Source: a virus
IMG/VR virus record: IMGVR_UViG_3300008266_000177
Location: 1-38,014 of that record
Length of the DNA: 38,014 bases
Reading direction: 5' to 3' (one strand)
Shown here: positions 5,214 through 33,927 of the stretch, one piece after another
Position numbering within the stretch: the stretch's first letter is position 1
How the letters are laid out: each line of letters starts with the position of its first letter
Notes under the pieces: model-generated
The model's input: the letters and a program-made list of their open reading frames with translations, nothing else
Told to the model about the DNA's origin: nothing
Databases searched by the model: none
Translations under genes and position numbers: made by a program

Positions 5214-5460
5214 TGAGCACCTCGTCGAGCTTGTTGGCGTACCAGATGGCCTTGCGGTTGTCTTCGACCGAGCTGTCCTTCTTGCCCAGGCGCCACTGAT
5301 ACTTGATGACTTGGCCGCGCAGGAAACCGATGAACTGCTCCTTGCCCAGGGCGGCACGGATTGCATCGATGCACTCGACCCCGTTGTCGGTCTCGGCGTA
5401 GTGAGGCGGGTGGTTGACCATGTCCTTGGCAGGAGCCGGCTTAGTGATCTTGCGTTGCAT
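5203..5460 (-). CDS. DUF3310 protein (T7 gp1.7-related nucleotide kinase domain)
   Basis: An 85-aa protein. The region after residue 14 (NHPPHYAETDNGVECIDAI, then FLRGQVIKYQWRLGKKD and DNRKAIWYANKLDEVL) is the DUF3310 signature. In T7 the same domain occurs in gp1.7, a novel dGMP/dTMP kinase. Here it exists alone, without the T7 N-terminal region. The start at 5460 lies inside the end of thyX (20-base overlap); longer starts have no coding character. With ThyX just upstream it may phosphorylate dTMP or a modified dNMP, which is inference. Confidence 0.85.
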   Translation of the reverse strand: MQRKITKPAPAKDMVNHPPHYAETDNGVECIDAIRAALGKEQFIGFLRGQVIKYQWRLGKKDSSVEDNRKAIWYANKLDEVLNEA

Positions 5461-6109
5461 CGAGAATCTCCTTGATTGAGGGCATGACATGAAGCAGAGC
5501 CAGCTTGCACATGACGGCAATCTCGCGGTGCTCCTTCTGGGTACCGTTGCCGGCACGGAGTTGGATGTAATGGATCCAGCTGCGAACTGAGCCGGACATG
5601 TAGAGGCGCGATGGTGTCAGGCCTTCGGGCAGGACAGCGCGAGCAACCTCCTTGGCGATTCCCATCTTGAGGGCAGACATGTACACCTCGCTTGTAGCGT
5701 GGGCAATCTCCTCTTGCTTGTATGCCCACCACTTGCGAAGATCGTCGTCCTCGATAGCCAAGCTGTTCTGGCGGTTCGTGGTGTCCTGCATGCGGGCTTC
5801 ACGGATCACCGCGTCATCGACCACAGCAGCGTAACGCTGGCTGAACTCTTGGAAGCTGAAGGACCGATGACGGAGAATCTGACGGGCGATGTCGCGGGTC
5901 GTCTGAATCTCGATGACAGCATGGGCCATCTCGAAGGGCGACCAGTGGTGGTTGCGCACAAGGTAGTTGAGCAGACGAGGAGCCGTTTCGTGGTTGGCCT
6001 GATTGGCAGGGTTCGAGACCCGTGCGCAGTAGGCCACCAGCTCCTCGCCCGTCTGAACACCTTCCAGCTCAATCGGCTGGGTGAACGCGATCAGACGGAC
6101 TTGGTTCAT
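5441..6109 (-). CDS. thyX: Flavin-dependent thymidylate synthase ThyX
   Basis: A 222-aa ThyX that makes dTMP from dUMP using methylene-tetrahydrofolate, FAD and NADPH. The ThyX signature RHRxxSxxxxSxRY is complete (RHRSFSFQEFSQRY, residues 80-93) and the upstream TTRDIARQIL helix is typical. The C-terminal part has the substrate-binding region RSWIHYIQLR. It overlaps the 71-aa gene upstream (ATGA) and DUF3310 downstream. The genome also has a ThyA-family gene at 29916-30698, so ThyX is probably the real thymidylate synthase of this phage. Confidence 0.96.
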   Translation of the reverse strand: MNQVRLIAFTQPIELEGVQTGEELVAYCARVSNPANQANHETAPRLLNYLVRNHHWSPFEMAHAVIEIQTTRDIARQILRHRSFSFQEFSQRYAAVVDDAVIREARMQDTTNRQNSLAIEDDDLRKWWAYKQEEIAHATSEVYMSALKMGIAKEVARAVLPEGLTPSRLYMSGSVRSWIHYIQLRAGNGTQKEHREIAVMCKLALLHVMPSIKEILDATQDH

Positions 6110-6323: not shown

Positions 6324-6680
6324 TCAGTTGCCCTCCACTTTGTCTGCACGAGCTTGGGCGGCTTCGTTGGTGTACTTCAGCCCGTTGTAGCGAACACTGA
6401 GCTTGGCGATGTTGGCTTCAAGTGTCTCTTCACGAGTGATGCCCAGGCCTTGGCGCAGACCTTCCATGTAGAACTCGAGATCGCCCAGTTCTTCGACGAC
6501 GTTTGCGCGATCGATGGGCTTGACATAGATGGCCGCTTTCTTGACGGCGTCCAGCAATTCACCGGCTTCACCGGAGACACCGACCGCCATGTGCAGAAGG
6601 TGAGCTGTCTCAGGTGTCAGACTTGCGACGATGTCTGCACCAGGTTTGGCCAATGCTTTGACCATATCTGCGTGGTTCAT
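6324..6680 (-). CDS. MazG-like nucleotide pyrophosphohydrolase
   Basis: A 118-aa all-alpha NTP pyrophosphohydrolase. The metal-binding pattern is present: ExxE at 38-41 (GEAGELLD) and ExxD at 64-67 (VEELGDLEFY). The family hydrolyses (d)NTPs to NMP and pyrophosphate, clearing unwanted nucleotides or feeding dNMPs to synthesis. ThyX lies two genes downstream. A second, different MazG-superfamily gene lies at 31090-31482. It follows a strong leftward terminator, so it needs readthrough or its own start signal. Confidence 0.9.
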   Translation of the reverse strand: MNHADMVKALAKPGADIVASLTPETAHLLHMAVGVSGEAGELLDAVKKAAIYVKPIDRANVVEELGDLEFYMEGLRQGLGITREETLEANIAKLSVRYNGLKYTNEAAQARADKVEGN

Positions 6681-29419: not shown

Positions 29420-29914
29420 TCAAAGTTCCACAAGAAGTTGTTCCCAAGCCCTCCCGGCGCCAGTCCACAAGTCTTTGGCTGCCGAGTGAGGGTATTCCTC
29501 CACATAGACAATCCGCTGGCAGCTTGTGTTCAGCAACAGTTTGCAGCAGGTCATGCATGGGCTGGCCGTCACGTAGGCTGTGTGGATGGCATACATATCT
29601 CGGCACTGGAGCAAAGCATTTTGCTCGGCGTGGATTGCTTGGCAGCCATCTAGGTTTGTGCCACTTGGCGCCTTGGCTCCTGAGCACGCATGGGGGAAGA
29701 CCTCAACCACATAGGTGTTGTGACCATCGTCGTCTGTCACGACATCCATGTGGTTGCAGTGAGGAAGTCCAGCCGCGACGCCGTTGTACCCTGTTGAGAG
29801 CACATGGCCACGGGCATTCAGCAAGACACAACCCACGGCACGTCGGCAGCAGGTCGTTCTCTGAGCGGTCAGCAAGGCCAACTTGAGGGCCCATTCGTCG
29901 CGGCTGAGTCTCAT
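29420..29914 (-). CDS. dCMP deaminase
   Basis: A 164-aa zinc deaminase converting dCMP to dUMP, the substrate of thymidylate synthase. The catalytic HAE is H95-A96-E97 and the second zinc motif SPCMTC supplies C120 and C123. A Cys/His-rich insertion precedes them (PHCNH, FPHACSG), as in the allosteric T4-type enzyme with its extra zinc. The start at 29914 has GGGAG 7 bases upstream and lies 1 base after the ThyA-family stop. It ends the leftward arm just before the terminator. With ThyX it forms a dCMP to dTMP route. Confidence 0.94.
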   Translation of the reverse strand: MRLSRDEWALKLALLTAQRTTCCRRAVGCVLLNARGHVLSTGYNGVAAGLPHCNHMDVVTDDDGHNTYVVEVFPHACSGAKAPSGTNLDGCQAIHAEQNALLQCRDMYAIHTAYVTASPCMTCCKLLLNTSCQRIVYVEEYPHSAAKDLWTGAGRAWEQLLVEL

Positions 29915-29915
29915 C

Positions 29916-30698
29916 TCAGTTCTCCCACCAGCGAAGGTCGTCACCAGCCTTGGTCTCGCGCAAAGCGGCCAAGGTCTTCATCAAATGCTGAGCATCATTC
30001 CAGAGCAGGATGTCTGTCTCAGGTTGCTCGAGGACCTCACTGGCCAAGCACAACTTGGCATCTGCCCAGTTGGTCTCATACAGGTGGCTTGAAGCTGCCG
30101 TCAAGAAGAGGCGGCCAGGCTTTACGGCATTGTCAAACTTCCGATGCTCATTCAACAGACCACAGACCAGATGGGCCAGCATGCTGAAGTTGAAGACATC
30201 GTATGGCACACCAAGCCAGACATCGCTTGATCGCATGAACACATGGGCATTGAGTTTGCCGCTGCGCATGCTAAAAAAGATGGCCACAGTGCACGGTACG
30301 TCCTTGGTCTGGGGTGGGCACTCGCGCCAAATTGTCAGACCAGCTTGACGGCTGTCTTCATCTGCCAGCAACTTCTCAACGATGTAAGGCAGCTGAGCCA
30401 CAATCTTGGGGCCGTAGGCACCGAAGAAGCGTTCGCCATCGTCGCTGAAGTCTTTGATGCGGCTGTTGTACGGAGCAATTGTCTCAACGCGGTCGTCACC
30501 AGACAAGATCCAGTAAGCCTCAGCCGCCATGAACTTGTAGCTCAGACTGCGATCAGGCACGCGAAGCACTGGACGGCGCATGTCAACCACCATGGTGCGT
30601 TGTGGAATCTCACGGGTCATCTTGCCGCGTGGAGCCACTGGGTCGCCATTGGTCAAGATGTCATTGAGAGCATCAAGCCAGGTTTTTGAGAAGTCCAT
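29916..30698 (-). CDS. ThyA-family enzyme, candidate dCMP hydroxymethylase/methylase
   Basis: A 260-aa ThyA-fold protein. The catalytic Cys136 (DVPCTV), Glu60 (AAEAYW), the phosphate-binding region MRSSDVWLG (R156, D159) and HLY (H205, Y207) are kept. The position of E. coli Asn177, 31 residues after the catalytic Cys in both, is Asp167 (LGVPYDVFN). In known enzymes Asn here selects dUMP, while Asp is found in T4 dCMP hydroxymethylase and converts Lactobacillus ThyA into a dCMP methylase. The PPCH motif is PCT and the usual IWDEW tryptophan region is replaced by IAPYNSRIKDFS. It is therefore more likely to act on dCMP than to duplicate ThyX. This inference needs biochemistry. Confidence 0.85.
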   Translation of the reverse strand: MDFSKTWLDALNDILTNGDPVAPRGKMTREIPQRTMVVDMRRPVLRVPDRSLSYKFMAAEAYWILSGDDRVETIAPYNSRIKDFSDDGERFFGAYGPKIVAQLPYIVEKLLADEDSRQAGLTIWRECPPQTKDVPCTVAIFFSMRSGKLNAHVFMRSSDVWLGVPYDVFNFSMLAHLVCGLLNEHRKFDNAVKPGRLFLTAASSHLYETNWADAKLCLASEVLEQPETDILLWNDAQHLMKTLAALRETKAGDDLRWWEN

Positions 30699-30700
30699 GG

Positions 30701-31072
30701 TCAGTCCTTTGAGTAGGCGCCAGCAAAGAAGCCAGCGTAGTTGATGATGTCCAACGCCGTATCGCGCAAGCCTTCAAAGTTTGCGTCTTGGCCACGCATC
30801 TCTTTGAGGACCAGCGAGTTGAAGCGCTGAGACTTGGTGTGAAGCATCTGAGCGTAGCTTACTGCACCGAATGGGAAGTACGACGAACGGTCGATCTTGT
30901 GCGGATCCATGTCCGCCGCGCCTTGGTTGTAGTCTTGGCTCTTGCGGACACAGAGCAAAGCAGCTTCAGCCAAAGCACCGGGGTGTCCACCGCGAGATTG
31001 GAGTTCTTCCAACAATTCCACAGTTGAGCATTCGGCCAGTTGAGTGGCAGGCAGCAAAGACTTGGTTTTCAT
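30701..31072 (-). CDS. DUF1599/Nmad1-like protein, nucleotide modification associated
   Basis: A 123-aa mostly helical protein starting at 31072 (AAAGGA 7 bases upstream). The VRKSQDYNQGA stretch, the TKSQRFNSLVL helix and the closing LRDTALDIINYAGFF follow the pattern of DUF1599, named nucleotide modification associated domain 1 because of its gene neighbourhoods in phages. The biochemical activity of this family is not established. It lies 2 bp upstream of the ThyA-family gene, which suggests joint function in making or handling an unusual nucleotide. Family call is moderate. Confidence 0.65.
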   Translation of the reverse strand: MKTKSLLPATQLAECSTVELLEELQSRGGHPGALAEAALLCVRKSQDYNQGAADMDPHKIDRSSYFPFGAVSYAQMLHTKSQRFNSLVLKEMRGQDANFEGLRDTALDIINYAGFFAGAYSKD

Positions 31073-31089
31073 ATCAGTTCCTTTACGAG

Positions 31090-31482
31090 TTACCATGACA
31101 AAATTTCCTTTAAGCGATATTCAGGACCTACCCAGCCTTCCGGCTTCTTGACGTCGAACGCGCTGCCGCGCTTTGAGTCTTCAGCCTTGGCCACACGGAC
31201 CTTGGCCATATTAGCAGAATGAACTGCGTGCATGCCGGCGTGCCACTGAGCAGCATCAATGCCAGCAAAGAGTGCTGTGCCGTAGGCCACATAAGCCAGA
31301 TCGAGCAAAGCATCGAAGGCGCCAACCTTGTCACCAGTAGCCAAAGCCTCTTTGAGCTCATCGAGTTCCTCTTGGAGAAACTTGACGCGAAACTCCTGCG
31401 CAGCAGGGTCCTGCATGAGTTTGTCTTCGTTGCCCAAAGGCAAACCAAACTTCTCATGGAATTCAGCGACATTTCCAATCAT
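31090..31482 (-). CDS. Second MazG/HisE-superfamily nucleotide pyrophosphohydrolase
   Basis: A 130-aa all-alpha protein of the MazG/PRA-PH superfamily. FLQEELDELKEAL (35-47) holds the first acidic motif (E39, E42) and DALLDLAYVAYG (57-68) the second. It belongs to the phage subgroup usually annotated as PRA-PH-like or HisE-like, which has no histidine pathway role in phages and probably hydrolyses a dNTP. Next to the Nmad1-like and ThyA-family genes it could act as a dCTPase, as T4 gp56 does with an unrelated fold. Its sequence is clearly distinct from the MazG-like protein at 6324-6680. Confidence 0.85.
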   Translation of the reverse strand: MIGNVAEFHEKFGLPLGNEDKLMQDPAAQEFRVKFLQEELDELKEALATGDKVGAFDALLDLAYVAYGTALFAGIDAAQWHAGMHAVHSANMAKVRVAKAEDSKRGSAFDVKKPEGWVGPEYRLKEILSW

Positions 31483-32300
31483 CAGAACGGCGCTCCTTTC
31501 GTGGCCTTGCGAGCAACTGGCTTTACGGGCTTGCCATCAGCCGCTTTGCGGCACACCCACAGGTTGTTGCGAGCGTGATCCTCATGCAACGGGCCAAAGA
31601 TGTTGCTGATGGCGTCGTTGTCGAAGTACTGTTCCAACGCCTTGCGAACTTCCAGTACAGCTGCCTTGCTGCAGCCAGTGGGGTCAACCTTGCCGATGTG
31701 CTTGATGTCCATGAATGTGCCAAAGCGGCGCTCGATGACGTAGCCAGCTTTCTCGATGGCGGCCTGCAGCTCAGGCACTTTGTACTCATGGATGTGGTTC
31801 TTGGCATGGCGCACGCCGTCATAGACTGGAGTCGAGAGCAGCAACACGCCGCCCGGCTTAGTGGCTGCAAACATGGCCTTGAGTAGGTTGGCCCCATGCT
31901 CGACCTTCATGTGCTCAATGACTTCGTAGTTGACGACGACGTCAAAGCCCTCAGGACGCGCCTTCAGGAGTTCTTTGTAGCGCTCGACGAAGTTGAACTC
32001 GCCCAGGAACTGGAGGCGCTGGCTATTAGACGGCTTCAACTTATTGAGGTCCACGCCAGTGTAGTGGTTGACATGAGCAGCTGCACCGCCTGTGAGAATC
32101 TTGCTGAGCGGTTTGTCTTCGCCGCAGCCGACTTCGAGGACGTTGTGCTTGGCCGTGATGAAGCGACGTGCAAAGCTCCAGCGCCAAAAGTGGGCGGAGT
32201 AGTCGCGGTGCAGAGTGCGGCCGTGACCCGCTTCGTGCAGTTGAGTAGTGTCGTAGTCGCGGGCGTCGCGAGAGACTTCTTTAGTGCTTGCTTTTGGCAT
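31482..32300 (-). CDS. SAM-dependent methyltransferase (class I)
   Basis: A 272-aa class I methyltransferase. Motif I is VLEVGCGEDKP (54-64), the acidic end of strand 2 is YTGVDLN, and motif IV is VVNYEVIEHM, followed by GGVLLLSTPVY. The lack of DPPY or NPPY argues against an amino-methylating DNA methyltransferase, and the family resembles small-molecule or sugar O/C-methyltransferases. It adjoins the MazG-like gene and may modify a nucleotide, a base adduct or a surface molecule. The C-terminal tail is basic (KPVKPVARKATKGAPF). Confidence 0.85.
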   Translation of the reverse strand: MPKASTKEVSRDARDYDTTQLHEAGHGRTLHRDYSAHFWRWSFARRFITAKHNVLEVGCGEDKPLSKILTGGAAAHVNHYTGVDLNKLKPSNSQRLQFLGEFNFVERYKELLKARPEGFDVVVNYEVIEHMKVEHGANLLKAMFAATKPGGVLLLSTPVYDGVRHAKNHIHEYKVPELQAAIEKAGYVIERRFGTFMDIKHIGKVDPTGCSKAAVLEVRKALEQYFDNDAISNIFGPLHEDHARNNLWVCRKAADGKPVKPVARKATKGAPF

Positions 32301-32366: not shown

Positions 32367-33023
32367 TTACTTTGCCACCTTGGCTTCGGGCGGATTGGCG
32401 CCTTGCTTCTTCAGGTGGTTGCGATACCATTTGACGTAGCCACGCTTCTTTTCGTCCAGACCGAACTCGGTTTGAACCTTCTCAAAGATTTGGTCGTCGG
32501 TCAACTTGCCAGCCATGATCAAATCTTGAAACATCTGAGCAGCCGAGGGTTTCTTCTCCCCAGCCTTGGCGGGCTTTGACACTGGCTTCTTCACCGCCGG
32601 ATCAACAGCTCGGCGACCGGCTTTAACCTCGGTCGTCTTTGCTGCCGGCTTCTTGGCGGCGGGTTTTGCTGCTTTGGTGGCAGCCGGCTTCTCAGCCGTG
32701 GTTTGCTTTTTGGCGGTAGCCATTTCGAGCTCCTGTTTGCTTACGTTGATGACTTGGCCAAGATATTCCATGGCCTCCTTTGTCGCCCCGAGGGTCTGGC
32801 TGTAGTTCACAAAGAGCTGACATGCCTTCTCAACAGGGTATCCTTCCATCGGCGTGAACCGCTGGTCGAATGAATCCGCCGACGTCGAATGGACCTCAAG
32901 GCCCAAAATGATGTCTAGCGGAATGAACTTGACAAGACCTGCACTGCGCTCAACTTGAATGCAGGTGCGTCTGTTGTGGTCGTGGCACGGCATGACCGCC
33001 GGTGCTTGCTTCTTAGTTGCCAT
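32367..33023 (-). CDS. Two-part protein with internal start; basic linker and C-terminal domain
   Basis: A 218-aa protein. The start at 33023 has TGGAGA 9 bases upstream. Residues 1-100 are a small folded part (PCHDHNRRTC, LVKFIPLDIILGLEV, FTPMEGYPVEKACQLF). Exactly at residue 101 an in-frame ATG (32723) follows AGGAG by 6 bases, so a 118-aa C-terminal product is probably also made. That product has a Lys/Ala/Pro linker of histone-tail type (AAKPAAKKPAAK) and a C-terminal helical domain (DLIMAGKLTDDQIFEKV, then YVKWYRNHLKKQG) that is paralogous to the end of the protein at 33458-33877. It resembles two genes fused by stop loss. DNA or RNA binding is suggested by charge only. Confidence 0.75.
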   Translation of the reverse strand: MATKKQAPAVMPCHDHNRRTCIQVERSAGLVKFIPLDIILGLEVHSTSADSFDQRFTPMEGYPVEKACQLFVNYSQTLGATKEAMEYLGQVINVSKQELEMATAKKQTTAEKPAATKAAKPAAKKPAAKTTEVKAGRRAVDPAVKKPVSKPAKAGEKKPSAAQMFQDLIMAGKLTDDQIFEKVQTEFGLDEKKRGYVKWYRNHLKKQGANPPEAKVAK

Positions 33024-33258
33024 TCTTTTTATCTCCAGAAAGTTGATCAGCGATGACGGACAATTCAAGAAGGCCTTGCATCAAGACCTTGGCTTCAGGC
33101 CAGTACTGTGGTCCATAGACCTGCCAGTGAAGCTGAACTGTGCCGTTCTTCTTGCTCACGAGAGCACGCCTACCGCCGTCGATGTACAGCTGGAAGCGAA
33201 TCTCCTCGTGCGTGCTCTCGTCAATAATCTCGATGGTGTCCGGGTTGCTGATGGTCAT
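33013..33258 (-). CDS. Unknown small protein, 81 aa
   Basis: An 81-aa alpha/beta protein starting at 33258, where the ATG overlaps the stop of the upstream gene (ATGA) and GGGG lies 7 bases upstream. The first 45 residues are beta-rich (TIEIIDESTHEEIRFQLYI, then GTVQLHWQVYG). A helix follows (EAKVLMQGLLELSVIADQL). The end overlaps the start of the 218-aa gene by 11 bases. I do not recognise a family. Confidence 0.7.
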   Translation of the reverse strand: MTISNPDTIEIIDESTHEEIRFQLYIDGGRRALVSKKNGTVQLHWQVYGPQYWPEAKVLMQGLLELSVIADQLSGDKKNGN

Positions 33259-33457: not shown

Positions 33458-33877
33458 TCAAGCTTCCTTGGGCAGGAGACCAGTGCGCTTCATCTCGCAA
33501 CGATACCAAGTAGGGTAGTGCTTCTTGGAATCATCAAGGTTGAACTGCTGCTTCAGTGCTTCCCAGACTTCTTGGTTAGTCTTGCCAGACAGGATCAACT
33601 CACGCGCCGTGGCAGAGATGCCCATCTTCTTCGGCTTGACTTCGACAACCGGGTCGGCAGCGCGACGACCTGCCTTAACAACCTTGGCCTTAGGTTCGGC
33701 AGCGGCAACTGGCTTGGGGTTCTTCAAAGACTCAAGATGGGCGGCAGCTGCGCCGAGCTTGCACTCGAACTTGTCGCCAACCTTCGTGATGAAGAGGTTG
33801 TAGTCGCGAGCCTGAAGGCCGAGCTTACGCAGGGCTGAAGTGGCAGAGTCGCGGGCGGTGTAGGTCTTGGTCGTCAT
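33458..33877 (-). CDS. Early protein with WYR-type C-terminal domain, 139 aa
   Basis: The first gene behind promoter P4; the ATG at 33877 (MTTKTYTARD) follows GCTGAGGA. Residues 1-60 are a small folded part (ATSALRKLGLQARDYNLFI, FECKLGAAAAHLESL). A KAGRRAADP linker follows, then a C-terminal helical domain (ARELILSGKTNQEVWEALKQQF, then HYPTWYRCEMKRTG). The linker and C-terminal domain are paralogous to the end of the 218-aa protein at 32367-33023. The helical end looks like a short DNA-binding or docking domain. Function unknown. Confidence 0.8.
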   Translation of the reverse strand: MTTKTYTARDSATSALRKLGLQARDYNLFITKVGDKFECKLGAAAAHLESLKNPKPVAAAEPKAKVVKAGRRAADPVVEVKPKKMGISATARELILSGKTNQEVWEALKQQFNLDDSKKHYPTWYRCEMKRTGLLPKEA

Positions 33878-33902
33878 GGTAGGGTCCTCAGCAAGGTTTG
33901 TT

Positions 33903-33927
33903 CGGTCAAGCACCATTGCGTTGACCG
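33903..33927 (-). other. 5'-terminal RNA hairpin of the P4 transcript
   Basis: CGGTCAA (minus strand, 33927-33921) pairs with TTGACCG (33909-33903): 7 bp with an 11-nt loop, starting next to the P4 transcript start (about 33928). It matches the placement of the P3 hairpin but has a longer stem and an unrelated loop. Confidence 0.65.

Follow-up and report, generated by a model that had tools for sequence, protein, structure and literature searches.

The hydroxymethylase gp42 of phage T4 acts on deoxycytidine monophosphate (dCMP) together with the dCTPase gp56, the cd deaminase and the gp1 kinase. In physically cytosine-modified phage contigs recovered by MetaGPA, PF00303 proteins with an aspartate at position 177 of ThyA are linked to PRA-PH proteins and dCMP deaminases (PMC8670742), and the DNA of phage Xp12, a relative of the Pamexvirus phage AXL1, contains 100% 5-methylcytosine (5mC) (PMC7653180, PMC9206674). 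Here we describe an operon of five genes in the IMG/VR virus fragment IMGVR_UViG_3300008266_000177, a stretch of 38,014 nucleotides (nt) that does not represent a complete genome and is referred to as the window. The operon is built around a protein of the thymidylate synthase (TS) family and quite probably encodes a pathway for cytosine hydroxymethylation at the deoxynucleotide level. The original prediction for this locus had proposed a cytosine-modifying TS-family enzyme making either 5-hydroxymethyl- or 5-methyl-dCMP, a MazG-like protein that removes dCTP and a ThyX responsible for dTMP; this agrees with all tests that were run, which narrow the predicted product to 5-hydroxymethyl-dCMP. 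We regard the cassette as real and conserved, its core as a variant of known hydroxymethylation systems and its methyltransferase as the interesting part.

All five open reading frames were found at the predicted coordinates on the minus strand in an operon-like arrangement, in which neighbours overlap at start and stop except for one pair lying 2 nt apart. The order from 5' to 3' is S-adenosylmethionine (SAM) methyltransferase, PRA-PH/MazG hydrolase, DUF1599-like protein, TS-family protein and dCMP deaminase (Table 1). The deaminase, the MazG-superfamily hydrolase (46.3 bits to PF01503, cut-off 21.3) and the methyltransferase, all named as neighbours by the original prediction, have Pfam and PHROGs matches well above cut-off, and the separate flavin-dependent ThyX that it had noted was recovered with PF02511. 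ThyX and a second MazG-like protein are located at the opposite end of the fragment from the operon.

Diagnostic residues and the proposed pathway

The TS-family protein matches PF00303 with 78.9 bits (cut-off 24.3), its catalytic Cys136 falling in the invariant column. In alignment A2, Cys136 corresponds to Cys146 of E. coli ThyA and Asp167 to Asn177, with a spacing of 31 residues in both proteins, which confirms the position first assigned to this aspartate. As a control, 27 PF00303 proteins of the ThyA family were taken from Pseudomonadota genomes. All 27 have Asn at the 177 column and every relative having this operon has Asp, so that Asp167 is not a chance substitution. Three residues before the catalytic cysteine (position -3) the controls have Leu (23 proteins) or Gly (4 proteins), and the window has Asp133, aligning with D145 of T4 and Leu143 of E. 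coli. The protein is not a canonical ThyA, as Asn177 and Leu143 are both replaced by Asp; the ThyA-type C-terminal tail at the end of alignment A2 has been lost as well.

In the ternary structure of the T4 dCMP hydroxymethylase, the aspartate at -3 activates water and has been proposed as a hydroxymethylase signature, and product formation is abolished in the D145N mutant (PMC6400193). The residue pair at -3 and 177 is Asp/Asp in T4 gp42, in Xp15 and in the window, Asp/Asn in the dUMP hydroxymethylase SPO1 gp29, Leu/Asn in E. coli ThyA, and Asn/Asp in JWX and in the Pamexvirus phages AXL1 and PaMx28. Enzymes of known or strongly inferred chemistry thus sort as expected, and this two-residue rule separates the four known outcomes of the TS family that are represented in the comparison, namely thymine, 5mC, 5-hydroxymethyluracil (5hmU) and 5-hydroxymethylcytosine (5hmC).

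Compared with T4, the window shares the logic of the pathway, the aspartate pair (Asp179/Asp145 in T4), the lack of a ThyA tail and the dCMP deaminase. It differs in having only 22% identity to gp42, Gly instead of Ser94, a PRA-PH hydrolase instead of gp56, ThyX instead of td and a SAM methyltransferase, and no glucosyltransferase was recognised in the fragment. Xanthomonas phage Xp15 and the 5-carbamoyloxymethylcytosine clusters of MetaGPA also combine MazG, an Asp/Asp TS, a deaminase and ThyX, with a gene of tailoring type directly upstream of MazG; there, however, a NodU-type carbamoyltransferase replaces the SAM methyltransferase and the TS is only about 30% identical. Among solved structures the best sequence match in PDB is MilA, the cytidine monophosphate (CMP) 5-hydroxymethylase of mildiomycin synthesis (E 9.7e-18), which has the Asp/Asp pair too. 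In the window, Lys133 and Ala176 of MilA are replaced by Arg117 and Ser157, the state described as dCMP-preferring rather than CMP-preferring in the MilA study (PMC5175136), predicting a preference for dCMP over CMP.

The genes, their residues and their conserved linkage can be read directly from the sequences, and we propose the following pathway for them. The PRA-PH/MazG protein would convert deoxycytidine triphosphate (dCTP) to dCMP, and the TS-family enzyme would hydroxymethylate dCMP at C5, using methylene-tetrahydrofolate and water and releasing tetrahydrofolate. Once a kinase of the phage or the host has phosphorylated the product, the polymerase would insert 5hmC instead of cytosine, presumably with complete replacement. 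The deaminase would feed deoxyuridine monophosphate (dUMP) to ThyX for the synthesis of thymidine monophosphate (dTMP), and the methyltransferase may tailor the hydroxyl group of the hydroxymethylated base. ThyX occurs in the window as well as in AXL3, PW916 and Xp15. Dihydrofolate reductase (DHFR) restores folate only where the product is methyl, and because tetrahydrofolate would be released by the hydroxymethylation, the pathway would need no DHFR. No DHFR gene was detected in the window, nor in AXL3, PW916 and ctUtU524, relatives whose genomes are complete; AXL1, PaMx28 and T4 do have one, T4 having a thymidylate synthase as well.

Several points weigh against this reading. The third T4 signature residue, Ser94 (Ser or Thr two before Tyr), is Gly93 here (Gly93-Ala94-Tyr95). 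As the T4 S94A mutant retains about 25% activity (PMC6400193) and SPO1 gp29 has Ala at this position, Gly93 weakens strict membership in the T4dCH type rather than function, and we predict a functional dCMP hydroxymethylase without assigning it to the strict T4dCH type. On the TS tree, the great length of the T4 branch makes placement relative to T4 uninformative. The window being a fragment, missing DHFR or kinase genes (no nucleotide kinase was recognised in it) carry little weight. DHFR was not detected either in JWX, although its state is Asn/Asp; lack of DHFR is thus not enough to exclude a methylase and is supportive only. Finally, liquid chromatography-mass spectrometry or other nucleoside chemistry for phages with this operon was not found in the literature.

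Table 1. Features of the operon and related genes in the window
Feature	Position	Strand	Evidence
dCMP deaminase	29420..29944	-	PF00383 E 1.3e-18; phrog_174 8e-37; HAE and PCxxC zinc motifs in translation
TS-superfamily protein, predicted dCMP hydroxymethylase	29916..30698	-	PF00303 E 4.6e-22; Cys136, Asp167, Asp133, Tyr95
DUF1599/Nmad1-like small protein	30701..31096	-	sub-threshold PF07659; homology to C-terminal domain of Pamexvirus MazG fusion
MazG/PRA-PH nucleotide pyrophosphohydrolase, predicted dCTPase	31090..31482	-	PF01503 E 5.7e-12; phrog_671 2.1e-25
Class I SAM methyltransferase	31482..32300	-	PF13489 (Methyltransf_23) E 3.1e-13; HEN1/UbiG grade; phage-specific family
ThyX, flavin-dependent thymidylate synthase, expected to supply dTMP	5441..6109	-	PF02511 E 3.8e-39; phrog_85 3e-64
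Second MazG-like pyrophosphatase adjoining ThyX	6324..6680	-	PF03819 5.3e-05; phrog_229 1e-39

The methyltransferase and other candidate tailoring genes

Profile matches of the methyltransferase to HEN1/UbiG structures reach about 1e-8; its scores with the curated equivalogs stay below cut-off (33.4 bits for UbiG with a cut-off of 103, 30.8 bits for bacterial Hen1 with a cut-off of 340). Its AlphaFold model has a predicted local distance difference test (pLDDT) value of 87.9, and Foldseek retrieves generic class I small-molecule methyltransferases with template modelling (TM) scores of about 0.5. Four residues do not vary across 31 diverse members of the family, namely H169 and the E126, E129 and H130 of an ExxEH motif in the class I SAM fold; ExxEH together with a distal histidine is the metal site of HEN1. 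Overall, the protein resembles metal-dependent O-methyltransferases of the HEN1/UbiG kind.

For the linkage of this gene, only the viral scans seeded with the methyltransferase itself, which gave 47 and then 34 more loci, were treated as unbiased; in the viral scan with the TS profile a KDVPCT-like pattern was one of two seeds, so that Asp at -3 was partly selected there. A TS is present on the locus or record in 73 of the 81 loci, some of them from near-identical contigs and hence not 73 independent events, and all have Asp at both -3 and 177. No TS was found in the remaining eight (L030, L054, L150, L152, L160, L170, L172 and L174; records of 5-39 kb); for three of them, with 39.5, 38.1 and 24.0 kb, the length of the record makes the absence noteworthy. 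Among 84,980 prokaryote genomes, only six contigs carry a relative of the methyltransferase, and four of these also encode an Asp/Asp synthase. The gene is thus almost exclusive to the Asp/Asp synthase setting and belongs to a phage family.

TS relatives that lack the methyltransferase often carry another candidate, which may be a carbamoyltransferase (Xp15), a module with a pyridoxal phosphate (PLP)-dependent enzyme (six loci) or a gene resembling C5-cytosine methyltransferases (four loci). Besides the PLP-dependent enzyme, which matches PALP below cut-off, the conserved PLP module (L090, L096, L100, L101, L102 and L103, all Asp/Asp TS loci without the methyltransferase) comprises a protein of unknown function of about 400 residues and a phrog_13881 protein, and these three genes are possible cytosine hypermodification genes. 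None of 75 rows combines the methyltransferase with either the carbamoyltransferase or the PLP module; four of the 75, and several distant loci, combine it with the C5-methyltransferase-like gene. An enzyme encoded in such clusters is proven to carbamoylate 5hmC (PMC8670742), which, together with this exchange of tailoring genes, renders it plausible that the methyltransferase tailors the base as well. In a large group of uncultured phages, candidate tailoring genes are exchanged beside a constant core.

We consider the chance that the methyltransferase modifies the base at all to be a little better than even. Because its nearest profiles are those of the HEN1/UbiG O-methyltransferases and the ExxEH and histidine residues are invariant, our leading guess, tentative and taken by itself rather doubtful, is O-methylation of the 5hmC hydroxyl, on the deoxynucleoside monophosphate or in DNA, to give 5-(methoxymethyl)cytosine. 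This compound was not found as a DNA base in the literature searched, nor has a role with hydroxymethylpyrimidines been described there for such a methyltransferase. If true, a conserved hydroxymethylation core would be flanked by a swappable tailoring position, with methoxymethylation as one of its chemistries.

The alternative to a tailoring step is an enzyme acting on, for example, RNA, protein or a small molecule. The DNA would then contain either plain 5hmC or a derivative whose genes lie elsewhere than in the fragment. We see this as a serious possibility, falling somewhat short of even; it is compatible with the hydroxymethylation core and competes with the tailoring step only. Class I methyltransferases are catalytically versatile, the Foldseek matches are generic, and a synthase cassette lacking both the methyltransferase and any recognised alternative occurs in one locus (L095) and in several fragments. 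On the other hand, the gene is the first of the operon and overlaps MazG, its family is phage-specific and linked to Asp/Asp synthases as described above, and several relatives without it have the carbamoyltransferase, the PLP module or the C5-methyltransferase-like gene at the locus.

Some observations on these loci may be added. L095 (3734-4540), an Asp/Asp TS locus, encodes an uncharacterised protein of about 269 residues upstream of MazG. In L151, L153, L154, L155, L158, L168 and L180 the methyltransferase lies near, and often adjoins, the C5-cytosine methyltransferase-like gene upstream of the Asp/Asp synthase. Such a gene is odd beside this synthase if C5 is already hydroxymethylated, and may be compared with the carboxymethyltransferase CmoX (PMC12783734). 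A CmoA/CmoX (carboxymethylcytosine) reading of the methyltransferase, prompted by the same paper, was not adopted, as CmoA is absent among its profile matches.

Cultured relatives and other possible products

The operon has the same gene order in Stenotrophomonas phage AXL3 and Pseudoxanthomonas phage PW916, whose orthologous clusters are likewise accompanied by a ThyX elsewhere in the genome; they differ from the window in having a fusion of a kinase with a second domain in place of the DUF1599-like gene. The TS is 56% identical between the window and AXL3 (56-58% for AXL3 and PW916), and the methyltransferase is more similar, with 73-74% identity to AXL3 and PW916 and 73-76% when ctUtU524 is included. 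Out of 37 enzymes tried on AXL3 DNA, just TasI and Tru1I cleaved it, both with A/T-only sites, and all tested sites containing G/C were refractory (PMC7504290). The authors left the modification unknown and interpreted the cluster as one for thymidylate synthesis (PMC7504290). AXL3 being a cultured phage, the hydroxymethylation pathway is testable.

The restriction data bear on an Xp12-type pathway, in which the enzyme would be a dCMP methylase making 5-methyl-dCMP like the Asn-to-Asp variant of Lactobacillus ThyA. Asp177 by itself gives ThyA dCMP methylase activity (Liu and Santi 1992, as cited in PMC8670742), and the Pamexvirus cluster (AXL1, DLP4, PaMx28) of the kin of Xp12 shares with the window the MazG and DUF1599-like domains (fused there), an Asp177 TS and a deaminase. 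AXL1 and PaMx28, standing in for their relative Xp12 in the comparison of residues, tail and DHFR, nevertheless have Asn at -3, a ThyA-like C-terminal tail and a DHFR alongside, a state not shared by the window TS, and ThyX was not found in either. KpnI and AhdI, an isoschizomer of Eam1105I, fully cut the 5mC DNA of Xp12, and KpnI and Eam1105I partly cut AXL1 DNA, whereas both fail to cut AXL3 DNA (PMC7504290) in spite of at least 11 KpnI and at least 6 Eam1105I sites in a 24.8 kb part of its genome. This pattern is evidence against plain 5mC as the modified base of AXL3, but does not distinguish 5hmC in its plain form from a derivative, and we consider the methylase improbable.

Still less probable is the reading implied by the GenBank label of the PW916 protein, in which the enzyme would hydroxymethylate dUMP and yield 5hmU. 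SPO1 gp29 shares the Asp at -3, but its base-selecting residue is Asn where the window has Asp, and enzymes with A/T-only sites cut AXL3 DNA. An ordinary thymidylate pathway of deaminase, thymidylate synthase and kinase, as in the published annotation of AXL3 and PW916 (PMC7504290, PMC9414467), is the least probable reading, since both ThyA residues are Asp, ThyX is also present and dTMP synthesis does not explain the G/C-specific resistance of AXL3. The hydroxymethylation pathway would replace this annotation by one that explains the resistance.

Two published entries may be noted in this context. The cluster gp27-gp31 of AXL3 (L004, 9644-13678), published as one for thymidylate synthesis, appears better read as a cytosine hydroxymethylation cluster, and the PW916 protein is labelled deoxyuridylate hydroxymethyltransferase, yet has Asp as its base-selecting residue.

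The DUF1599-like gene and further observations

The DUF1599/Nmad1 label of the original prediction was upheld in part. The PF07659 match is below threshold (14.6 bits with a cut-off of 25, E 0.042), and 12 of 16 members of the family match this profile weakly; the label is supported, the C-terminal domain of the MazG-DUF1599 fusion in Pamexvirus phages being clearly homologous to this protein. The AlphaFold model is poor (pLDDT 52). Among L015-L061, the slot between MazG and TS holds either this gene or the thymidylate-kinase-like fusion, never both. The two are non-homologous, and 12 switches were counted on the TS tree; even the nearest relatives of the window differ in the slot gene though their TS is about 94% identical. 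For the second domain of the kinase fusion, a likeness to uracil-DNA glycosylase was suspected by eye, and no PDB sequence match supported it.

The PHROG family of the second MazG-like protein (phrog_229) is unlike that of the cassette hydrolase. In addition, the window proteins encoded at 32367-33068 and 33458-33916 share a C-terminal domain of about 50 residues (phrog_17205, function unknown).

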